Source: an uncultured Eubacteriales bacterium
GTDB taxonomy: Bacteria > Bacillota > Clostridia > Christensenellales > Aristaeellaceae
NCBI GenBank assembly: GCA_902764285.1
Contig: CACWVN010000002.1
Coordinates: 1 to 59,883 of the forward strand
Length of the DNA: 59,883 nucleotides
Direction of reading: 5' to 3'
In this document: in pieces, positions 1 to 11,979 of the stretch
Position numbering within the stretch: position 1 is the first letter of the stretch
Layout: the number at the start of each line of letters is the position of its first letter
The notes under the pieces: model-generated
Database searches by the model: none
What the model was told of the DNA's origin: nothing
What the model saw: only the letters and a program-made list of their open reading frames with translations
Position numbers and translations under genes: made by a program

Positions 1-950
1 GCCATCATCACCACCCAGAACTGCCAGTTCCGGCGCAGCACGAGCATCACGCGGTCGCCCTTTTTGATGCCCAGGGCCTTGAAATAGTTGGCCGCGCGGT
101 TGGACTTGCGGCTGATGTCCTCAAAGGTGAAGCGCTGTTCGCGGTTGTTGCGGTCCACGTACAAAAGGGCCAGTTTGTCCGGCTTGCGCTCGGCCATGCC
201 GTCCACGATGTCGAACGCGAAGTTGAATTTGTCGGAATTGGGAAAATCGATGTGCAGCAGGTGCCCTTCGCCGTCCTCGTCCAGATCGACGAACTGATCG
301 TAGATCATGTGCTGCTTCACCGGGCGCACGGCCATCACGGTCTGGGTGACCTGCTCGGGTTCCGCGGCCTCGCCGGGCAGCACCACGGCGACGAACGTGC
401 AGTCCTTCCCGCCGGTGGCGATCATGCCGTGGGGCGTGGAGGAATTATAATAGATGCTGTCGCCCTCTTTGAGGTGCTCCACGTGGTCGCCCACGCGCAC
501 CAGCAGCTCGCCGGAGAGGATCAGATCGAATTCCTGGCCGGAGTGGGTGGTGGTGTGGATGGGCTGGCTTTGCAGCTCTTCGGAATAGCTATAGGTGACC
601 CAGAAGGGCTCCGCCAGCTTGTTGGAGAACATCGGCGCCAGGTTGGAGATTTCGATGCCCTGCTCGCGCGCGGTGATGCTGGCGTCGCCCTTGCGGGTGA
701 CGGTATAGGAGGTCAGGTTCGCGCTGCGGCCTTCCATCAGGTCGGTGATGTCCACGCCGAAGATCCGCGCGCAGTTATGGATAAACGTAAACGGAAGGTC
801 GGCCTGGCCGGCCTCGTATTGCATGTAGGTTTCCACGTCGATGCCGGTCTGGTCCGCCATGTAGACGACGGAATAACCCGCGATTTCGCGCAGCGCGCGG
901 ATACGGGTGCCAACCTCGTACAGCATGCCGGTCGTATCGGTTGCGTTCAT
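1..950 (-). CDS. XRE-family HTH + cupin + AMP-binding acyl-CoA synthetase (3' end cut by window)
   Basis: The frame is open from ATG 950 to the left edge with no stop (about 316 codons). I translated it by hand. Residues about 8-65 form an XRE-type helix-turn-helix. Residues about 110-195 form a cupin barrel (SGQEFDLILSGELLVRVGDH, then EGDSIYYNSSTPHGM). From about residue 245 the N-terminus of an AMP-dependent acyl-CoA synthetase begins (MAERKPDKLALLYVD, RAANYFKALGIKKGDRV). The adenylation core and C-terminal domain lie outside the window. AGGAGG at 961-966 supports the start. By family the enzyme would ligate a carboxylic acid to CoA using ATP; the HTH and cupin suggest it also binds DNA and a small ligand. 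Substrate is not readable; the T-box upstream and the divergent oxidoreductase point to a branched-chain acid (inference). Confidence 0.85.
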   Translation of the reverse strand, partial: MNATDTTGMLYEVGTRIRALREIAGYSVVYMADQTGIDVETYMQYEAGQADLPFTFIHNCARIFGVDITDLMEGRSANLTSYTVTRKGDASITAREQGIEISNLAPMFSNKLAEPFWVTYSYSEELQSQPIHTTTHSGQEFDLILSGELLVRVGDHVEHLKEGDSIYYNSSTPHGMIATGGKDCTFVAVVLPGEAAEPEQVTQTVMAVRPVKQHMIYDQFVDLDEDGEGHLLHIDFPNSDKFNFAFDIVDGMAERKPDKLALLYVDRNNREQRFTFEDISRKSNRAANYFKALGIKKGDRVMLVLRRNWQFWVVMM

Positions 951-984
951 AATGGAATCTCCTCCTTTTCATCGCTGGCGTGGC

Positions 985-1304
985 AAATAAAAAAACGCCT
1001 CAATCCATGCCGTAAGCATTTCTTGAGACGAGTTTCGATCAACCCGCGGTACCACTCAAATTGCACGTCGCCGTGCCCCTTCAGGCTCGCCCCTTCAGGC
1101 TCCAACAAGCCCTAAGCCTTTACGCAGCTTTCACGGGAGGCGTCTACTTGCGCATCCACCATCGGATGGCTTTCGGGTCTCCGGCTCGGAAGGGATGGGC
1201 TTGCGAGCGATCTGTGTCCGGCCTTTCAGCAGCTGGCCGGCTCTCTGCGCACCGATGCGCTCCGCCGTCTTCGTCATTGCCTTTGGGAATATTCGATTGA
1301 GGTC
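985..1304 (-). promoter_or_regulatory. T-box leader, probable tRNA-Ile sensor
   Basis: The conserved T-box AGTGGTACCGCGG runs 1056-1044 on the minus strand. It is followed by a hairpin (CTCAA...TTGAG with an inner ATGC/GCAT) and a T7 run near 990, the competing terminator. Stem I shows a kink-turn (GGC-AATGAC-GAAG with CTTC-CGA-GCC) and an AGAGAG bulge. In all three T-boxes of this window the specifier is followed by one base and then the lower helix; here that places AUC (Ile) at 1196-1194. The acceptor-pairing bases UGGU imply discriminator A, which fits tRNA-Ile and excludes tRNA-His, the alternative CAU reading. T-boxes turn genes on when the cognate tRNA is uncharged. The assignment to Ile is inference. 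Confidence 0.88.
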
Positions 1305-1333
1305 ATTATAGCGCGGCGCCGGCCAGTTGTCAA
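1305..1333 (-). promoter_or_regulatory. Consensus sigma-A promoter of the T-box transcript
   Basis: On the minus strand TTGACA (1333-1328) is separated by 17 bp from TATAAT (1310-1305). Both hexamers are perfect consensus, so expression of the acyl-CoA synthetase is probably limited by the T-box rather than by initiation. Confidence 0.85.
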
Positions 1334-1427
1334 ACCTTGTCGCTGTAAAATTTGCATTAAACGCCATAATGCGCGCGTTATAGGTAAAATAGGCTGATAT
1401 GGCCGCATTTTTACAAAAATTAATCCC

Positions 1428-1456
1428 TTGACAACGGTACCGCAAACTGATAGATT
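1428..1456 (+). promoter_or_regulatory. Promoter of the 2-oxoacid oxidoreductase operon
   Basis: TTGACA (1428-1433), 17 bp, TAGATT (1451-1456). The leader to the first gene is short (about 35 nt) and holds no T-box of its own, so the divergent operon is not under the same attenuator. Confidence 0.6.
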
Positions 1457-1499
1457 TATCATAATAGCAAGGTGATATGCCGGGCGGGGAGGAATGCGC

Positions 1500-2216
1500 A
1501 TGGCGGAGTTTGCCGGGCTGCGGCAGCCGGACCGGCGCATCATGGTCGTCATCGGCCACTACGGCAGCGGGAAGACCGAATTCTGCGTGAGCCTGGCGAT
1601 GCTGCTGGCGAAGAACGGCTACGGCTCCTACAGCCGGCTGGCGCTGGTGGACCTGGACATCGCCAACCCGTATTTCCGCTCCCGCGAGCGGCGCGACCTG
1701 CTGGAATCCGCGGGCGTGCGCATGTACGGCAGCGCTTACCAGCATGAGATCACCGCCGAACTCCCGGCCCTGGGCGCAGACATCCGCGCGCCGCTGGAGG
1801 ACGCGGACTGCCGCGCGATCGTGGACGTGGGCGGCAACGATTCCGGCGCCATCGTGCTCAATCAGTTCGGCAAATATTTTTCGCCGGAGGACGCGCTGTT
1901 TCTGATCGTCGTGAACGCCAACCGCCCGGAGACGCGCGACCTGGCCGGGGCGATGGAACACCTCGAAGCCATCGAACGCAAGACCGGCCGGCGCATCGAC
2001 GGCATCATCAACAACTGCCATCTGCTGCTGGAGACGGACGCGGCGTGCGTGGCGAAGGGGCACCGGCTGTGCGAGCAGCTGGCCGCCGAGACCGGCAAGT
2101 TCATCTGGTGCGACTGTTTTCCAAGCCCCATCGTGCCCTTTGAACAGATCGCCGGGCGATACGAATATCCCATGCCCCTGGGCATGTACATGCGGCCCTC
2201 CTGGATCGACAAGTGA
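1500..2216 (+). CDS. P-loop ATPase, ParA/MinD-like, leading the oxidoreductase operon
   Basis: A 238-residue cytosolic protein with a Walker A motif near the N-terminus (GHYGSGKTE) and a following LALVDLDIANPYF segment typical of SIMIBI-class ATPases; VDVGGNDSG and IIVVNANRPET-like strands follow. ATG 1500 is preferred over ATG 1494 because GGGGAGG ends at 1492, only one base before 1494. The gene is followed 75 bp later by the ferredoxin subunit. Its role is unknown. The position suggests a maturation or cofactor-insertion factor for the oxidoreductase, as MinD-type ATPases often serve metal-enzyme assembly; that is inference. Confidence 0.75.
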   Translation: MAEFAGLRQPDRRIMVVIGHYGSGKTEFCVSLAMLLAKNGYGSYSRLALVDLDIANPYFRSRERRDLLESAGVRMYGSAYQHEITAELPALGADIRAPLEDADCRAIVDVGGNDSGAIVLNQFGKYFSPEDALFLIVVNANRPETRDLAGAMEHLEAIERKTGRRIDGIINNCHLLLETDAACVAKGHRLCEQLAAETGKFIWCDCFPSPIVPFEQIAGRYEYPMPLGMYMRPSWIDK

Positions 2217-2291
2217 TCCGGCGCGGGCGGAACAAAGGTCATAGCGCTTGCGGCGAAAGGGCCGCTGCGCGGGATATAAGGAGGCTACAAC

Positions 2292-2513
2292 ATGGCAAAA
2301 AAGTTTCAGGTGGTCATTGACCGGGAGCGCTGCAAGGGCTGCGAGCTGTGCCGCAGCTTCTGTCCGAAGCAGCTGATCGAGATGGACACCCAGGTCAACG
2401 CCAAGGGCTACTGCCCGGCGAAGATGACCCGCAGCGACGAGTGCGTCGGCTGCACCAGCTGCGCGCTGGTCTGTCCCGACTGTGCGATCGAAATCTTTGC
2501 GGAGGAGGAATGA
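2292..2513 (+). CDS. 4Fe-4S ferredoxin subunit (delta) of 2-oxoacid:ferredoxin oxidoreductase
   Basis: A 73-residue protein with two CxxCxxCxxxCP clusters (CKGCELCRSFCP and CVGCTSCALVCP), the bacterial 2x[4Fe-4S] ferredoxin fold. In this enzyme family the small subunit carries electrons from the thiamine site to soluble ferredoxin. It has a clear GGAG ribosome-binding site and lies 3 bp before the alpha subunit, so it is the first structural subunit of the operon. Confidence 0.93.
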   Translation: MAKKFQVVIDRERCKGCELCRSFCPKQLIEMDTQVNAKGYCPAKMTRSDECVGCTSCALVCPDCAIEIFAEEE

Positions 2514-2516
2514 TCG

Positions 2517-3593
2517 ATGGGCGAGAAGGTATTGATGAAGGGCAACGAGGCCTTTGCCGAGGCCGTCATTCGCGGCGGCTGCCGGTTCTATTTCGGCTAT
2601 CCGATCACGCCCCAGAGCGAAATCCCCGAATTCATGAGCCGTGAGCTTCCCAAGCGCGGCGGCAAATTCCTGCAGGCCGAGAGCGAGCTGGGCGCCGTCA
2701 ACATGGCTTACGGCTGCGGCGCGGCCGGCGGCCGGGGCTTTATCTCCTCGTCGTCTCCGGGCATCGCGCTGATGCAGGAAGGCATGAGCTTCCTCTGCGG
2801 CGCCGAGGTGCCGGTGACGATCCTGAACGTCTCCCGCGGCGGCCCGGGCATCGGTTCCATCCAGCCCGGCCAGGCCGATTACAACCAGGTCACCCGCGGC
2901 GGCGGCAACGGCGATTACAAGATCCCCGTGTTCGCGCCCGCCAGCATCCAGGAGGCCGTGGACATCCTCTATGAGGCGCCCGAGATCGCCGACAAATTCC
3001 GCAATCCGGTGATGGTGCTGGCCGACGGCCTGATGGGCCAGATGATGGAGCCGGTGCTGCTGCCGGAGCCGAAGCCCGAGATCACGTCCGCCGACATCCC
3101 GAAGGTGAAGCCCTGGGCCATCTCCGGCAGCGAAAAGGGCGAGCGCAGCGTGGTGAAATCCCTGCGCCTGCAGCCCGAGGTGCTGGAGGCCCACGTGAGC
3201 CACCTGTTTGAAAAGTACGCCGTGATGGAAAAGGAACTGGAGCGCGTGGAGTGCGAGGGCCTGGAGGACGCCGAAGTGGTGTTCGTGGCCTTCGGCACGA
3301 TGGCGCGCCTGGCCCGCGAGGCGATGGAGCTGCTGGAGGCCGACGGCATCAAGGCCGGCCTGATCCGTCCCATCAGCCTGTGGCCCTATCCCTACAGCGC
3401 GTTTGAAAAGCTCTCCGGCAAGACGAAGGTCGTCGTCTCCGTGGAGTTGAGCATGGGCCAGATGATGCAGGACATCAAGCTGGGCGTGCTGGGCCGCTGC
3501 CCGGTGAAGCTGATCTGCCGCACCGGCGGCATGCTGCCCACGTCGCTGGAGGTCGTGGAAAAGACGAAGAAGATATTGGAGGAAGTGCGATGA
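2517..3593 (+). CDS. vorB: 2-oxoacid:ferredoxin oxidoreductase, alpha subunit (VorB/KorA type)
   Basis: A 358-residue protein with the pyrimidine-binding transketolase-like domain (YFGYPITPQSEIPEFM, then the ISSSSPGIALMQEG stretch) and a C-terminal transketolase-C-like domain. With the beta subunit it catalyses the reversible reaction between a 2-oxoacid plus CoA and an acyl-CoA plus CO2, using ferredoxin. Family members annotated 2-oxoisovalerate oxidoreductase in Clostridia look like this, but the 2-oxoglutarate enzyme (KorA) cannot be excluded from sequence alone. Its last 4 bases overlap the beta gene (ATGA), implying translational coupling. Confidence 0.88.
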   Translation: MGEKVLMKGNEAFAEAVIRGGCRFYFGYPITPQSEIPEFMSRELPKRGGKFLQAESELGAVNMAYGCGAAGGRGFISSSSPGIALMQEGMSFLCGAEVPVTILNVSRGGPGIGSIQPGQADYNQVTRGGGNGDYKIPVFAPASIQEAVDILYEAPEIADKFRNPVMVLADGLMGQMMEPVLLPEPKPEITSADIPKVKPWAISGSEKGERSVVKSLRLQPEVLEAHVSHLFEKYAVMEKELERVECEGLEDAEVVFVAFGTMARLAREAMELLEADGIKAGLIRPISLWPYPYSAFEKLSGKTKVVVSVELSMGQMMQDIKLGVLGRCPVKLICRTGGMLPTSLEVVEKTKKILEEVR

Positions 3594-4333
3594 AGCCCGT
3601 ATTTACCGTTACAAAGGGCATGCTGCCCGTCAGCACCAGCTATTGTCCCGGGTGCACGCACGGCGTCGCGCACCGCCTGATCATGGAAACGCTGGATGAA
3701 ATGGGCCTGCTGGGCAAGGCGCTGGGCGTCGCGCCCATCGGCTGCAGCGTCGTGGCGCACCAGTTCATGAACGTCGATATGTGCGAAGCGGCCCACGGCC
3801 GCGCGCCGGCGGTGGCCTCCGGCATCCGCCGCGTTCATCCCGATAAGGTCGTGTTCACCTACCAGGGCGACGGCGACCTGGCCTCCATCGGCATGGGCGA
3901 GATCGTCCACGCGGCCGCCCGCGGCGAGAAGTTTTCCACCTTCTTCATCAACAACGGCATCTACGGCATGACCGGCGGCCAGATGGCCCCGACCACGCTG
4001 ATCGGCCAGCGCTCCACCACGTCGGTGGACGGCCGCACCCGCGAGCAGGCCGGCATGCCGCTGAAGATCAGCGAGCTGCTGGCCACGCTGGACGGCCCGG
4101 CTTACATCGAGCGCGTGGCGCTGGATTCCCCGGCCCACATCCGCGCGGCGAAGAAGGCCATCCGCAAGGCGTTTGAGGTGCAGCTGGCGGGCCTGGGCTT
4201 CTCCTTCGTGGAGATCCTGTCCACCTGCCCGACCAACTGGGGCCTGACGCCGCCCAAGGCCATGGAATGGCTGCGGGAGAACATGATTGCGTACTACCCG
4301 CTGGGCGTGTACAAAGACGCGGAGGTGAAATGA
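3590..4333 (+). CDS. 2-oxoacid:ferredoxin oxidoreductase, beta subunit (thiamine diphosphate binding)
   Basis: A 247-residue subunit carrying the thiamine diphosphate-Mg binding motif (GDGDLASIGMGE, then FFINNGIYGMTGGQ). It has the cysteine-containing start (YCPGCTHGVAHR) and IGCSV region usual for KorB/VorA. It pairs with the alpha subunit to decarboxylate, or in reverse carboxylate, the substrate. It overlaps the alpha stop by 4 bp and ends 1 bp before the gamma gene, so stoichiometric translation is likely. Confidence 0.92.
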   Translation: MKPVFTVTKGMLPVSTSYCPGCTHGVAHRLIMETLDEMGLLGKALGVAPIGCSVVAHQFMNVDMCEAAHGRAPAVASGIRRVHPDKVVFTYQGDGDLASIGMGEIVHAAARGEKFSTFFINNGIYGMTGGQMAPTTLIGQRSTTSVDGRTREQAGMPLKISELLATLDGPAYIERVALDSPAHIRAAKKAIRKAFEVQLAGLGFSFVEILSTCPTNWGLTPPKAMEWLRENMIAYYPLGVYKDAEVK

Positions 4334-4334
4334 C

Positions 4335-4871
4335 ATGGCGACCAATAAGCTGTTTTTCGCCGGCTCCGGCGGCCAGGGCGTTCTGACGATGGGCCAGATG
4401 ATCACCTACGCAGCCATGTACGCCGATATGAACGCCACCTGGCTGCCCTCCTACGGCCCCGAGATGCGCGGCGGCACCGCCAACTGCACCGTGGTCATCA
4501 GCCCGGACAAGCCCGTCAGCTGCCCGCTGATCTACGAGGCCGACAACGTGGTGGTCATGAACCTGCCGTCGCTGACCAAGTTCGAATCGCTGGTGAAGCC
4601 CGGCGGCAACCTGTTCGTGAACAGCTCGCTGATCGAGCAGAAGGCGAGCCGCGACGACATCAACGTCTATTACGTTCCGGCCAACGACATCGCCATCGAG
4701 CTGGGCAACCCGCGCACGGCCAACACCGTGATGCTGGGCGCGCTTTTGACCGTGGCGCCGGTGGTGCCGGAGGAAAAGATCTACAAGATCATGGAAAAGA
4801 CCTTCTCGGGCCGCAAGGCGCACCTGCTGGACATCAACAAGACGGCGCTGCACGCCTGGAAGCCAGAATAA
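4335..4871 (+). CDS. 2-oxoacid:ferredoxin oxidoreductase, gamma subunit
   Basis: A 178-residue pyruvate/ketoisovalerate oxidoreductase gamma-domain protein. It shows GSGGQGVLTMGQ near the start and the conserved SYGPEMRGGTANCTV segment, which contribute to CoA binding and the subunit interface in this family. It is the last gene of the five-gene operon and is followed by a strong bidirectional terminator. Confidence 0.92.
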   Translation: MATNKLFFAGSGGQGVLTMGQMITYAAMYADMNATWLPSYGPEMRGGTANCTVVISPDKPVSCPLIYEADNVVVMNLPSLTKFESLVKPGGNLFVNSSLIEQKASRDDINVYYVPANDIAIELGNPRTANTVMLGALLTVAPVVPEEKIYKIMEKTFSGRKAHLLDINKTALHAWKPE

Positions 4872-4952: not shown

Positions 4953-5576
4953 TCAGTCAAAAACGACCTGCCAGTTCGGGTCCGCCGCGGCGCGGAAGCA
5001 CATTTCGATCTGCGCGGCGTTGGTCTTGTTCCCGGCCAGCGGGGAAGGGATTTCGTCCGGCGCGAAAAAGCCGCAGCCCACGGTTTCAAGGTTCGGGATA
5101 AACTGTCCCGACACGTATTCGCACAGCACGAACGCCGAGCAGATGTTGTGGATGCTGGGCGGGGTGTTGTGCCGGTTGTGCTCGATCAGCGCGATCACGC
5201 GCAGCGGGCGCACCGTCATGCCGGCTTCCTCGAGCACTTCCTTGGCGACGTTGGTGCGGATCGTCAGATCGTAGTCCACCCAGCCGCCCGGCAGCGCCCA
5301 GCGGCCGTCCTTCTCGTGTACCAGAAGGATCCTGCCGTCGCGGATCACCGCCGCGCGGGTATCCAGTTTGGGCGTCTGATAGCCCTCTTCGCTGGCGAAG
5401 AGGCCCTTCACTTTGTCGATCGGCGTATCCGTCAGCTGGCTGACCATTTCGGCGGAGATCTCACGGATGCGCCTGAAGCGCTCGATATCGTAAGCGTCCT
5501 TGCAGTAAGCCAGCGCGCTCTGGGATAAAAATTGCAGCTCCCGGGCCCATTCCACCCATTTCATTTCGTCGGCCAT
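4953..5576 (-). CDS. NUDIX hydrolase with N-terminal helical domain
   Basis: A 207-residue protein. Residues about 1-65 match the helical domain that precedes NUDIX in YjhB-like ADP-ribose/nucleotide pyrophosphatases; the NUDIX fold follows. The NUDIX box reads GGWVDYDLTIRTNVAKEVLEEAG: the final EVLEEAG metal site is intact, while the first Glu and the Arg of the textbook pattern are replaced, as is common in this subfamily. Substrate unknown. It is a single gene. Confidence 0.85.
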   Translation of the reverse strand: MADEMKWVEWARELQFLSQSALAYCKDAYDIERFRRIREISAEMVSQLTDTPIDKVKGLFASEEGYQTPKLDTRAAVIRDGRILLVHEKDGRWALPGGWVDYDLTIRTNVAKEVLEEAGMTVRPLRVIALIEHNRHNTPPSIHNICSAFVLCEYVSGQFIPNLETVGCGFFAPDEIPSPLAGNKTNAAQIEMCFRAAADPNWQVVFD

Positions 5577-10221: not shown

Positions 10222-10840
10222 ACTGGAGCGCGTATCGCCGGTGGAGATCGAAAAGCGCAGCTTTGAGATCATCGGGCGCGAGCTGCCGCATCCCGTCGAC
10301 GAAAGCATAGCGCCCGTCGTTAAGCGCGTGATTCATGCCACCGCCGACTTCGACTACGTCGATTCGCTGTACTTCTCCGAAGGCGCGATCGACGCGGCAC
10401 TGGCGGCGCTGCGCGGCGGCGCGACGATCGTGACCGACACCGCCATGGCGCTGGCCGGCATCAACAAGGCGGCGCTGCAGCGGCACGGCTGCGCCGCGCG
10501 CTGCTTTATCGCCGATGAAGACGTAGCGAGCGCCGCCGCAGCGCGGGGCATCACCCGGTCCGCCGCCGCCGTGGAGAAGGCCGCGGCGCTGGAAGGCCCG
10601 CTGGTGTTCGCCGTCGGCAACGCGCCCACGGCGCTGGTGCGGCTGTGCGAAATGATGGGCGAGGGCAAAGTGCGGCCGAGGCTGGTGATCGGCGTGCCCG
10701 TGGGGTTCGTCAACGTGATCCAGTCGAAGGAAATGCTGATGGATTCGGATGTGCCCTGCATCGTGGCCCGGGGAAGAAAGGGCGGCAGCACCGTGGCCGC
10801 GGCGATCTGCAACGCGCTGCTGTACATGCTGGGGAGGTAG
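10202..10840 (+). CDS. cbiC: Cobalt-precorrin-8 methylmutase
   Basis: A 212-residue CbiC/CobH. It moves the methyl group from C11 to C12 to give cobyrinic acid. The family histidine is in VIHATADFDYVDSL, and TIVTDTAMALAGI, FAVGNAPTALVRL and GVPVGFVNVIQSKE are conserved. GTG 10202 is the outermost start; GTG 10211 is equally possible, since the AGAGGGG at 10193-10199 is 2 or 11 bases away. The reading frame overlaps the end of the CbiJET fusion. Confidence 0.94.
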   Translation: MNPVKAELERVSPVEIEKRSFEIIGRELPHPVDESIAPVVKRVIHATADFDYVDSLYFSEGAIDAALAALRGGATIVTDTAMALAGINKAALQRHGCAARCFIADEDVASAAAARGITRSAAAVEKAAALEGPLVFAVGNAPTALVRLCEMMGEGKVRPRLVIGVPVGFVNVIQSKEMLMDSDVPCIVARGRKGGSTVAAAICNALLYMLGR

Positions 10841-10842
10841 AC

Positions 10843-11979
10843 ATGCTTCGCAGCTACATCATGAAAAACGGTAAACCGCTGCGCTGCGGCTATACCACGG
10901 GCGCCTGCGCGGCGGCGGCCGCGGGTGCCGCGACGCAGATGCTGCTGACGGGAACGATCCCGGCGACATGGGCGCTGGACACGCCGAAGGGCGTCCGGCT
11001 TGCGCTGGATATTCTTGAAGCCCGGGCCGGCGAGGGGTTCGCGCGATGTGCCGTGCAGAAGGACAGCGGCGACGATCCGGACGTGACGAACGGCGTGCTC
11101 GTCTACGCGACGGCAAAAAAGACCGACGTCGGTATTGTTATCGACGGCGGCGAGGGCGTGGGGCACGTCACAAAGCCTGGACTGGACCAGCCAGTGGGCG
11201 CCGCGGCCATCAATTCCATGCCCCGGCGGATGATCCGCGAACAGGTGGAAGCGGCCTGCGCGGCCTGCAGATACTCGGGCGGTGTGGAGATTGCGATCTC
11301 CATTCCCGGCGGTGAAGAACTGGCCAGGCGCACATTCAATCCGAGGCTCGGCATCGAGGGCGGGCTTTCCGTCATCGGCACCACTGGCATCGTGGAGCCC
11401 ATGAGCACCGAAGCCGTGGTCGAGACGATCCGCCTGGAGCTGGGCGTATTGGCGGCCTCCGGCACGAAAGGCGTCGTGCTGTGCCCGGGCGCCTACGGCG
11501 AATCCTTCGCCCGGGAAGCGCTGGGCCTCGCGGCGGCGAAACCGGTGTGCGTGTCAAATTTCATCGGCGAGGGCATCGATCTGGCGGCCTCTGCGGGCTT
11601 CGGGCGCATCCTGCTGGTGGGCCACATCGGCAAGCTTGTGAAACTGGGCATTGGCATGATGAACACCCACTCCGCCTGCGGCGACGGCCGCATGGAGACG
11701 CTGGCGGCCTGCGCGCTGGAAGCCGGCGGGGAAGCGCCGCTGCTGCGGCAGATCCTGGCCTGCGCGACCACCGACGCCGCGCTGGACCTATTGGACGGCG
11801 CCGGGCTGCTGGACGCCGCGATGGCCGCGCTGCGCGCGCGGGTGCAGTCGGCGCTGAAGCGCCGCGCTCCGGCGTGCGTCAGGATCGGTTTCGTCTGCTT
11901 TACCAACGCCGGGCCGCGGCCGGGCATACTGTTCCGGAGTGACAACGCGCAGGAATTGATGGACAGTTTTGCAAAATAA
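10843..11979 (+). CDS. cbiD: Cobalt-precorrin-5B C1-methyltransferase
   Basis: A 378-residue CbiD, the anaerobic-pathway enzyme that methylates C1 and is unrelated to the canonical methylases. Hallmarks: RCGYTTGACAAAAAGAAT, DSGDDPDVTNG, IDGGEGVGHVTKPGLDQPVG, INSMPRRMI and GIGMMNTHSACGDGRME. ATG 10843 has GGGGAGG at 10831-10837; the frame is open farther upstream only as a shadow of cbiC. It is the last gene of the cluster. The initial chelatase and CbiL, and the later amidases and nucleotide-loop genes, are not in this window. Confidence 0.94.
   Translation: MLRSYIMKNGKPLRCGYTTGACAAAAAGAATQMLLTGTIPATWALDTPKGVRLALDILEARAGEGFARCAVQKDSGDDPDVTNGVLVYATAKKTDVGIVIDGGEGVGHVTKPGLDQPVGAAAINSMPRRMIREQVEAACAACRYSGGVEIAISIPGGEELARRTFNPRLGIEGGLSVIGTTGIVEPMSTEAVVETIRLELGVLAASGTKGVVLCPGAYGESFAREALGLAAAKPVCVSNFIGEGIDLAASAGFGRILLVGHIGKLVKLGIGMMNTHSACGDGRMETLAACALEAGGEAPLLRQILACATTDAALDLLDGAGLLDAAMAALRARVQSALKRRAPACVRIGFVCFTNAGPRPGILFRSDNAQELMDSFAK

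Follow-up and report, generated by a model that had tools for sequence, protein, structure and literature searches.

Why does a gene for an acyl-coenzyme A (CoA) ligase stand behind an RNA switch of the isoleucine class and opposite an operon for a 2-oxoacid:ferredoxin oxidoreductase? This arrangement occupies the first 4,871 nucleotides (nt) of the window, by which we mean the whole 59,883-nt stretch of DNA analyzed here (contig CACWVN010000002.1 of assembly GCA_902764285.1, from an uncultured Eubacteriales bacterium of the Aristaeellaceae). The ligase gene encodes a fusion of helix-turn-helix (HTH), cupin and AMP-forming ligase domains and is preceded by a T-box leader; the oxidoreductase operon is transcribed divergently (Table 1). 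Our analysis makes it very likely that the locus constitutes a tRNA-gated module making isoleucine from environmental 2-methylbutyrate.

The leader of the ligase gene shows the defining features of a T-box: a covariance match, a stem I specifier loop between conserved helices, a UGGN bulge and a competing terminator. In the covariance search, for which the leader was a 601-base target, the match to RF00230 scored 57.9 bits, below the Rfam gathering score of 93, and hence it is missing from a scan at the gathering threshold; that score was reached by five of the 18 T-boxes found in the window genome, and the other 13 lie below it. The initial annotation had read an isoleucine specifier, AUC, at positions 1196-1194, and the covariance-model alignment indeed placed this triplet in the specifier slot. 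The UGGU sequence is the same as in the ileS leader of the window genome; such a sequence is expected to pair with the ACCA end of tRNA. The one sequence pattern tried for the tRNA-Ile gene of the window genome gave no match. The terminator hairpin was recognized by eye alone and is not among the sites listed by a simple scanner. Judged by these sequence features, the ligase leader is a T-box of the isoleucine class.

The reading of the specifier was calibrated on cognate leaders of the window genome, namely valS (GUC-g), cysS (UGC-g), asnB (AAC-c), pheS (UUC-a), metS (AUG-g), leuS (CUC-g), hisS(-aspS) (GAC-a), thrS (ACC-g) and ileS (AUC-c). The calibration leaders share a geometry in which a single base separates the specifier from the lower helix, and the ligase leader (AUC-c-CUUC) has it too. 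The initial annotation had likened the geometry to that of the Cys and Asp T-boxes of the window; both exist, the Cys T-box at 13676-13479 and the Asp T-box at 39835-39565, each on the minus strand. Among the calibration genes, family models gave the names of valS and ileS, and we named the others from the first 80 residues; for ileS and thrS the Infernal slot was off and the codon was assigned from the helix position, and the alaS leader gave no clean fit to the one-base rule. The remaining leaders gave Tyr, Leu, Trp and Ser readings, with an independent check solely for the leader that precedes aminotransferase and tyrS-like genes. Two other frames were rejected. For CAU/UAU (His/Tyr) specifiers, the preceding base varies (C or U). 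The UCN (Ser) frame fits the codon table and was dropped because it is at odds with the one-base geometry, the UGGU rule and the Val leaders, in which this triplet differs at its first and third positions.

The leader is conserved. A single scan of 84,980 species genomes for the locus yielded 33 loci, and 31 of the 32 that include the gene start carry a T-box. We aligned 27 of the available leaders (L083, with a misplaced start, was dropped). The AUC specifier is present in all 21 aligned leaders of the Ile type and ahead of all 49 Ile-labelled ligases of the tree described below. The consensus fold of the 27 leaders comprises 46 pairs, of which 30 vary on both sides; in the two helices around the specifier, pairing amounts to 99.5% and 15 changes affect both sides, compared with 3.6 on average after shuffling and 0-3 when the helices are slid. 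As a separate observation, 16 of 26 leaders of close relatives carry, by patterns picked post hoc, a AATCGAATAT-like motif close to the start of the transcript and its reverse complement immediately ahead of the ribosome-binding site; in L019 the two copies lie about 372 and 46 bases upstream of the start codon, and the window has the first copy only. The repeat is a possible long-range RNA pairing or HTH-domain site and was not used as evidence.

Which acid the ligase activates is suggested by its relatives. The window holds the N-terminal part of the gene, and ligase residues 285-756, with the C-terminal part, were found on another contig of the window genome (G000:C96:2-1417). A full-length relative, P0001, which is 91% identical over the window part and includes the AMP-binding and C-terminal domains, was used as a stand-in. 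Its closest solved homologue is 3ETC (628 bits; second best 360), the Macs enzyme of Methanosarcina acetivorans, which according to a passage of PMC10455477 favors 2-methylbutyrate as the acyl substrate. The top curated family is MbcS (NF047394; 427 bits, and 427 to 460 for three relatives, with the cut-off of 850 missed), and the MbcS enzyme is described in part of PMC10026030 as accepting 2-methylbutyrate and isobutyrate. The pocket residue Trp259 (numbering of PMC10455477) is conserved throughout the two groups of ligase rows compared, in 45 of 45 and 9 of 9 rows.

All four subunits of a 2-oxoacid:ferredoxin oxidoreductase (alpha, beta, gamma and ferredoxin) are encoded by the divergent operon of the window. 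At an E value of 1e-90 the VorB model matched the alpha subunit of the window and no other POR_N protein of the genome; the three further POR_N proteins, with frames of 1194 (PFOR-like), 597 (IOR-like) and 515 residues, were named by length. The enzyme thus appears from its sequence to be of the branched-chain (VorB) type, for which we infer the substrate and the reductive direction. The initial assignments of the ligase class and of a branched-chain oxidoreductase were borne out by the relationship to 3ETC, by a VorB score above the cut-off and by comparison with relatives. A P-loop NTPase gene precedes the Kor genes in all 13 operon loci compared (the L043 copy is at 10290-10964) and in 24 close relatives; the predicted fold of the protein is nearest to signal recognition particle GTPases, weakly (template-modelling score about 0.5), and we claim no function for it. 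On the far side of the operon, a Nudix hydrolase gene (window 4953-5576, minus strand) adjoins KorC, and relatives of it occur in 9 of 25 close-relative loci.

Table 1. Features of the ligase-oxidoreductase locus, in window coordinates
Feature	Positions	Strand	Basis or remark
HTH-cupin-AMP-forming acyl-CoA ligase fusion, N-terminal 316 residues	3..950	(-)	contig end cuts gene
Intrinsic terminator hairpin CGUCUCAA...UUGAGGCG followed by seven U	989..1030	(-)	by eye; overlaps antiterminator
T-box leader, stem I through antiterminator	1021..1286	(-)	RF00230, 57.9 bits, E 4.9e-12
T-box sequence AGTGGTACCGCG / AGUGGUACCGCG, i.e. UGGU	1045..1056	(-)	read in leader
Specifier AUC (isoleucine)	1194..1196	(-)	A1196-U1195-C1194 in Infernal specifier slot
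Promoter-like TTGACA-17-TATAAT of ligase leader	1305..1333	(-)	matches 12/12
Promoter-like TTGACA-17-TAGATT of divergent operon	1428..1456	(+)	matches 10/12
SIMIBI-like P-loop NTPase	1494..2216	(+)	CbiA match below cut-off; precedes Kor genes
KorD, ferredoxin-type delta subunit	2292..2513	(+)	family-model search
KorA, alpha subunit, VorB subfamily	2517..3593	(+)	NF005507, 475 bits, cut-off 399
KorB, thiamine pyrophosphate-binding beta subunit	3590..4333	(+)	PF02775, 66 bits; PorB_KorB, 107 bits, cut-off 262 missed
KorC, gamma subunit	4335..4871	(+)	PF01558, 145 bits; PorC_KorC, 85 bits, cut-off 81

The neighborhood of ligase and oxidoreductase, for which the initial annotation had suggested a search of related genomes, recurs there. 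Among the 25 close relatives (L019-L042 and L047; identity 80-91%), the oxidoreductase operon is divergent from the ligase in 24; in L036 none of its genes was found within the 2.5 kb available before the contig end. In L043-L045 the genes lie on a single strand in the order T-box (Ile), ligase, NTPase, KorD, KorA, KorB and KorC (L044 ends inside KorA). The gap between ligase and NTPase is 30-39 bases in these loci and contains no terminator-like site, and no promoter-like site was found on the coding strand between ligase and downstream operon in L043 and L125. In L043 and L045, both from rabbit gut, a branched-chain aminotransferase follows the Kor genes (the L043 copy scored 496 bits, cut-off 307). 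L048, L050 and L051 have the ligase and no oxidoreductase within the stretch examined.

A transaminase had been postulated initially. None is encoded at the window locus; in the 12 operons outside the close relatives that have KorA, KorB and KorC (L043, L045, L109, L110, L114, L115 and L125-L130; L044 and L131 are cut), an aminotransferase gene stands beside or among the Kor genes in all but L128, with five of the 11 calls made by family model and the others by similarity. In L115 the Kor genes and the aminotransferase are separated by a nitrilase-like frame of 263 residues. The sole Aminotran_4 match of the window genome (L070 1297-2355, G000 contig C127) is 80% identical to the aminotransferase of L045, the KorA pair of the two genomes being just 53% identical, which suggests either a recent transfer or a foreign contig.

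Whether the oxidoreductase is under the same control as the ligase differs among these layouts. The claim that only the activation step is gated holds for the window and for L109, L130 and L131, in which an Ile T-box and two ligases are followed by the oxidoreductase and a promoter matching at 12 of 12 positions separates the second ligase from the NTPase; because of that promoter the oxidoreductase can be made without the T-box there, as in the window. It does not extend to L043-L045, L114, L115 and L125-L127, whose gene order indicates that the oxidoreductase is probably T-box gated too. The separate promoters, and the lack of a T-box before the oxidoreductase of the window, would suit an oxidoreductase working oxidatively in amino-acid fermentation, its proximity to the ligase being incidental and the ligase alone responding to isoleucine shortage; VorB-type enzymes are able to oxidize 2-oxoacids, and VorB is common also in genomes without the ligase. 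We consider this highly improbable, given that the association is kept in divergent and same-strand layouts, that the T-box-led runs include an aminotransferase, and that an AMP-forming ligase costs ATP and would oppose an oxidative pathway.

The module that we favor instead would work as follows. Uncharged tRNA-Ile would bind the leader through the AUC specifier and UGGU and stabilize the antiterminator, so that the HTH-cupin-ligase fusion is made. The ligase would spend ATP to form 2-methylbutyryl-CoA, which the divergently encoded ferredoxin-dependent oxidoreductase would convert by reductive carboxylation to 3-methyl-2-oxovalerate. A branched-chain aminotransferase, encoded beside the Kor genes in related lineages and on another contig in the window genome, would then yield isoleucine. 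We infer the response to tRNA, the substrates, the reductive direction and any ligand sensing by the HTH-cupin part. A T-box switched on at isoleucine shortage, an ATP-consuming ligase and, in L043 and L045, an oxidoreductase and an aminotransferase behind the same switch would together argue for amino-acid production.

The same acids could also serve membrane lipids, with the ligase providing branched acyl-CoA primers and the T-box reporting a shortage of isoleucine as their usual source. That MbcS is the best curated family speaks for this, since its product enters branched-chain fatty acids in S. aureus. Such a role nevertheless seems very unlikely to us: it does not account for the placing, in L043 and L045, of an oxidoreductase and an aminotransferase under the T-box, enzymes that when run oxidatively would burn the scarce amino acid, and it gives no reason to expect the absence of ilvC described below. 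In addition, a Tyr T-box of the same genome stands ahead of two ligases, an acyl-CoA ligase and a PaaK-like one, which is hardly a lipid-primer route.

Further evidence for the isoleucine module comes from a second ligase type. A search of 200 genomes of the order gave 30 ligase loci, with a T-box before the first ligase copy in 25 by pattern and in L100 by eye; many order-level genomes have two fused ligases in tandem. A Val T-box precedes 11 ligases (loci representing the same genome twice counted once), with GUA in nine, GUC in L097 and GUG in L128. In L114, L115 and L125-L128 the NTPase and oxidoreductase genes come after the Val-T-box ligase in the same orientation, and the gap from that ligase to the next gene is 14-30 bases (54 in L128). 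In a tree of 74 ligases, built without duplicate rows and without rows of fewer than 700 residues, a Val clade (support 99) comprises 16 rows, 11 with a Val T-box and five without a T-box of their own; its sister, the Ile clade (support 98), comprises 47 rows, 45 with an Ile T-box and two without. The Ile clade is free of Val rows and the Val clade of Ile rows; a further four Ile rows, and one row whose T-box was not read, branch outside both. By these leaders and their placement in the tree, a sister ligase arm under a valine T-box is present in other families, in which isobutyrate would be activated for valine and the same oxidoreductase used.

The codon of the T-box is matched by a residue of the ligase. 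Four residues before Trp259, all Ile-type rows have Gly255, as in MacsMa, and all 16 Val-clade rows have Ala255; the initial residue comparison set aside the four Ile-labelled rows outside the clades, and these later also showed Gly. Position 255 presumably lies in the acyl pocket, where we place it by its distance to Trp259 and from general knowledge of adenylation domains. Five other columns split the Ile and Val groups at the chosen threshold, column 541 alone without overlap. Ala at the Macs-255 position also occurs in an unfused paralogue of the window genus (L064, L069). In L064 (911-3184, G000 contig C140) an unfused HTH-cupin gene adjoins this ligase, which is 45-50% identical to the fused one; the pair is not among the T-box hits of the window genome, and ligases related to the L064 type are present in at least 22 of the 28 genus genomes.

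The gut bacterium of the window appears to have lost two genes of the usual isoleucine pathway. Within the genus, ilvC was found over the cut-off in five and ilvD in eight of 28 genomes, and the window genome has neither; the fused ligase is present in 26 of the 28 (missing in G011 and G024). The window genome has kept ilvB and ilvN (contig C17, L063), and a gene for an NYN-domain-like protein directly follows ilvN; in G002 (contig C10, L066), ilvC, ilvD and one further gene lie between ilvB and the NYN-domain-like gene. At the level of the order, ilvC (E up to 1e-60; 62 of the 63 hits also over the cut-off) was found in none of 28 genomes with ligases of the two clades and in 63 of the 172 others. 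The 28 ligase genomes comprise 26 placed by the tree, the window's own (G000) and G127, added by identity. Both kinds of genome occur within families f1, f10, f12, f14, f17 and f31; the pattern is thus not that of one lineage. VorB (E up to 1e-90) was found in 27 of the 28 ligase genomes versus 92 of the 172 others, and by coordinates the ligase lies within a few kilobases of the VorB gene in 15 of the 28. The initial annotation had described the locus as an isoleucine rescue system. Isoleucine supply is supported by the comparative genomics; "rescue" is likely too weak a word because ilvC and ilvD are missing beside the retained ilvBN, and judging from this gene content the module is probably a main isoleucine route more than a rescue.

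Several observations weigh against the module as we draw it. One locus with the gene start, L051, lacks the T-box; the ligase has no adjoining oxidoreductase in 16 of 20 order-level stretches, several of them shortened by contig ends; and the aminotransferase of the window genome is not at the window locus and sits on a 5.4-kb contig that could be foreign. The presence of VorB in 92 of the 172 other genomes indicates that the oxidoreductase is not special to the module. All five genus genomes with ilvC also carry the fused ligase, and acetolactate synthase persists in 25 of the 28. The Fisher test on the order-level ilvC counts gave p 1.3e-5, a value that ignores kinship and is inflated by relatedness, and the genomes examined are mostly metagenome-assembled. 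Furthermore, four f13 genomes combine ilvC with a more distant fused ligase. They were kept out of the 28, their ligases being outside the two clades (two of the four are in the tree), and this line was drawn knowing the ilvC result. The broader statement that any fused ligase excludes ilvC was rejected, because these four genomes have both.

Also adverse is motif III of the ligase itself, which reads YHTRD instead of YHTGD in the window ligase and in 19 of 22 close relatives. The Arg is absent from all 46 rows outside the close relatives, in which the YxxGD motif, usual and not strictly defining in AMP-forming ligases, is intact. In acetyl-CoA synthetase, a Gly-to-Ala exchange at this position lowered turnover more than 200-fold, according to part of PMC3438747, and from its sequence the chemistry of the YHTRD ligase could have shifted. 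Combined with the N-terminal HTH and cupin domains, the exchange raises the prospect that in the window genus the ligase part has turned regulator, the HTH-cupin part sensing a ligand and the Arg enzyme being slow or forming the acyl-adenylate only. We regard this as unlikely. In ten Arg-bearing relatives the ligase part is under purifying selection (median ratio of nonsynonymous to synonymous substitution rates, dN/dS, 0.18 over 45 pairs), and hence the gene is not decaying; the HTH-cupin part is under no stronger selection (median 0.23). Moreover, all 22 close relatives conserve the pocket Trp, and at least 21 of them conserve each of the CoA-site Tyr and Arg residues.

The chemistry of the proposed route is old. 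Formation of isoleucine from 2-methylbutyrate by reductive carboxylation was reported in 1969 (Robinson and Allison) in rumen anaerobes, and in the methanogen M. ruminantium M1; as far as the passages on these organisms go, both the acid and the proposed carboxylation are the same as in the window module. These passages name neither a ligase-oxidoreductase-aminotransferase operon nor RNA control, whereas here the genes are clustered and T-box gated. The present ligases resemble MacsMa (PDB 3ETC) in keeping Trp259, Gly255 and most CoA-site residues, and differ from it in their fusion to HTH and cupin domains, their T-box control, an exchange of Lys461 for Arg and, in most close relatives, the motif-III Gly-to-Arg exchange. 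With MbcS of Staphylococcus aureus, as described in the part of its report cited above, they share the AMP-forming type and, by prediction, the substrates 2-methylbutyrate and isobutyrate; however, they score about half of the MbcS cut-off, the MbcS model spans the ligase part without HTH-cupin, and MbcS feeds lipids. The leader has the same elements and geometry as an Ile-class T-box on ileS (RF00230) and differs in the controlled gene, an acyl-CoA ligase. The main-text portions of a T-box survey (PMC2494555) contain nothing on acyl-CoA, AMP-binding or oxidoreductase, and among open-licence (CC0, CC BY or CC BY-SA) PMC papers we found no publication linking a T-box to a ligase-oxidoreductase module. 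Within that literature, in which we found no report of it, the T-box control of the clustered genes is apparently new.

Other T-boxes of the window genome precede unexpected genes. A Tyr T-box (UAC; L003 1752-1501, minus strand) is followed by an acyl-CoA ligase gene and one for a PaaK-like phenylacetate-CoA ligase (541 bits against a cut-off of 646; L054 6087-9277, G000 contig C23), genes that perhaps make tyrosine from 4-hydroxyphenylacetate. A second Tyr T-box (L055) stands before a pyridoxal phosphate-dependent aminotransferase and a gene that we take to be TyrS-like from its first residues. A Leu T-box (CUC; L006 1501-1772, plus strand) stands before genes for a LeuA-like protein and for a fusion, cut by the contig end, of a xylose-isomerase-like TIM barrel and an AMP-forming ligase (both in L058 9089-12968, G000 contig C10). 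A Trp T-box (UGG; L012 1501-1751, plus strand) precedes a lactate/malate-dehydrogenase-like gene, an unusual target (277 bits, cut-off 304; L012 1752-2735, G000 contig C67). The Tyr and Leu loci suggest a broader acid-salvage regulon in the window genome.

A wider proposition, which in our judgment could go either way, is that gut Clostridia lineages swapped de novo branched-chain synthesis for T-box-gated acid upgrading, by separate HTH-cupin ligases for 2-methylbutyrate (Ile T-box, Gly) and isobutyrate (Val T-box, Ala) with a shared reductive oxidoreductase and a shared aminotransferase, extending to Tyr and Leu. If this is true, tRNA charging selects the fatty acid that is captured and the T-box codon foretells the specificity of the ligase, a rule that is testable as Gly versus Ala at the fourth position ahead of the pocket Trp. 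Rumen microbes use branched short-chain fatty acids, and the module would give concrete bacterial genes and a mode of regulation to the known physiology of isoleucine formation from 2-methylbutyrate. The requirement for branched acids would become readable from genomes, which bears on rumen cross-feeding, on isoacid feeding and on the cultivation of uncultured gut Clostridia.

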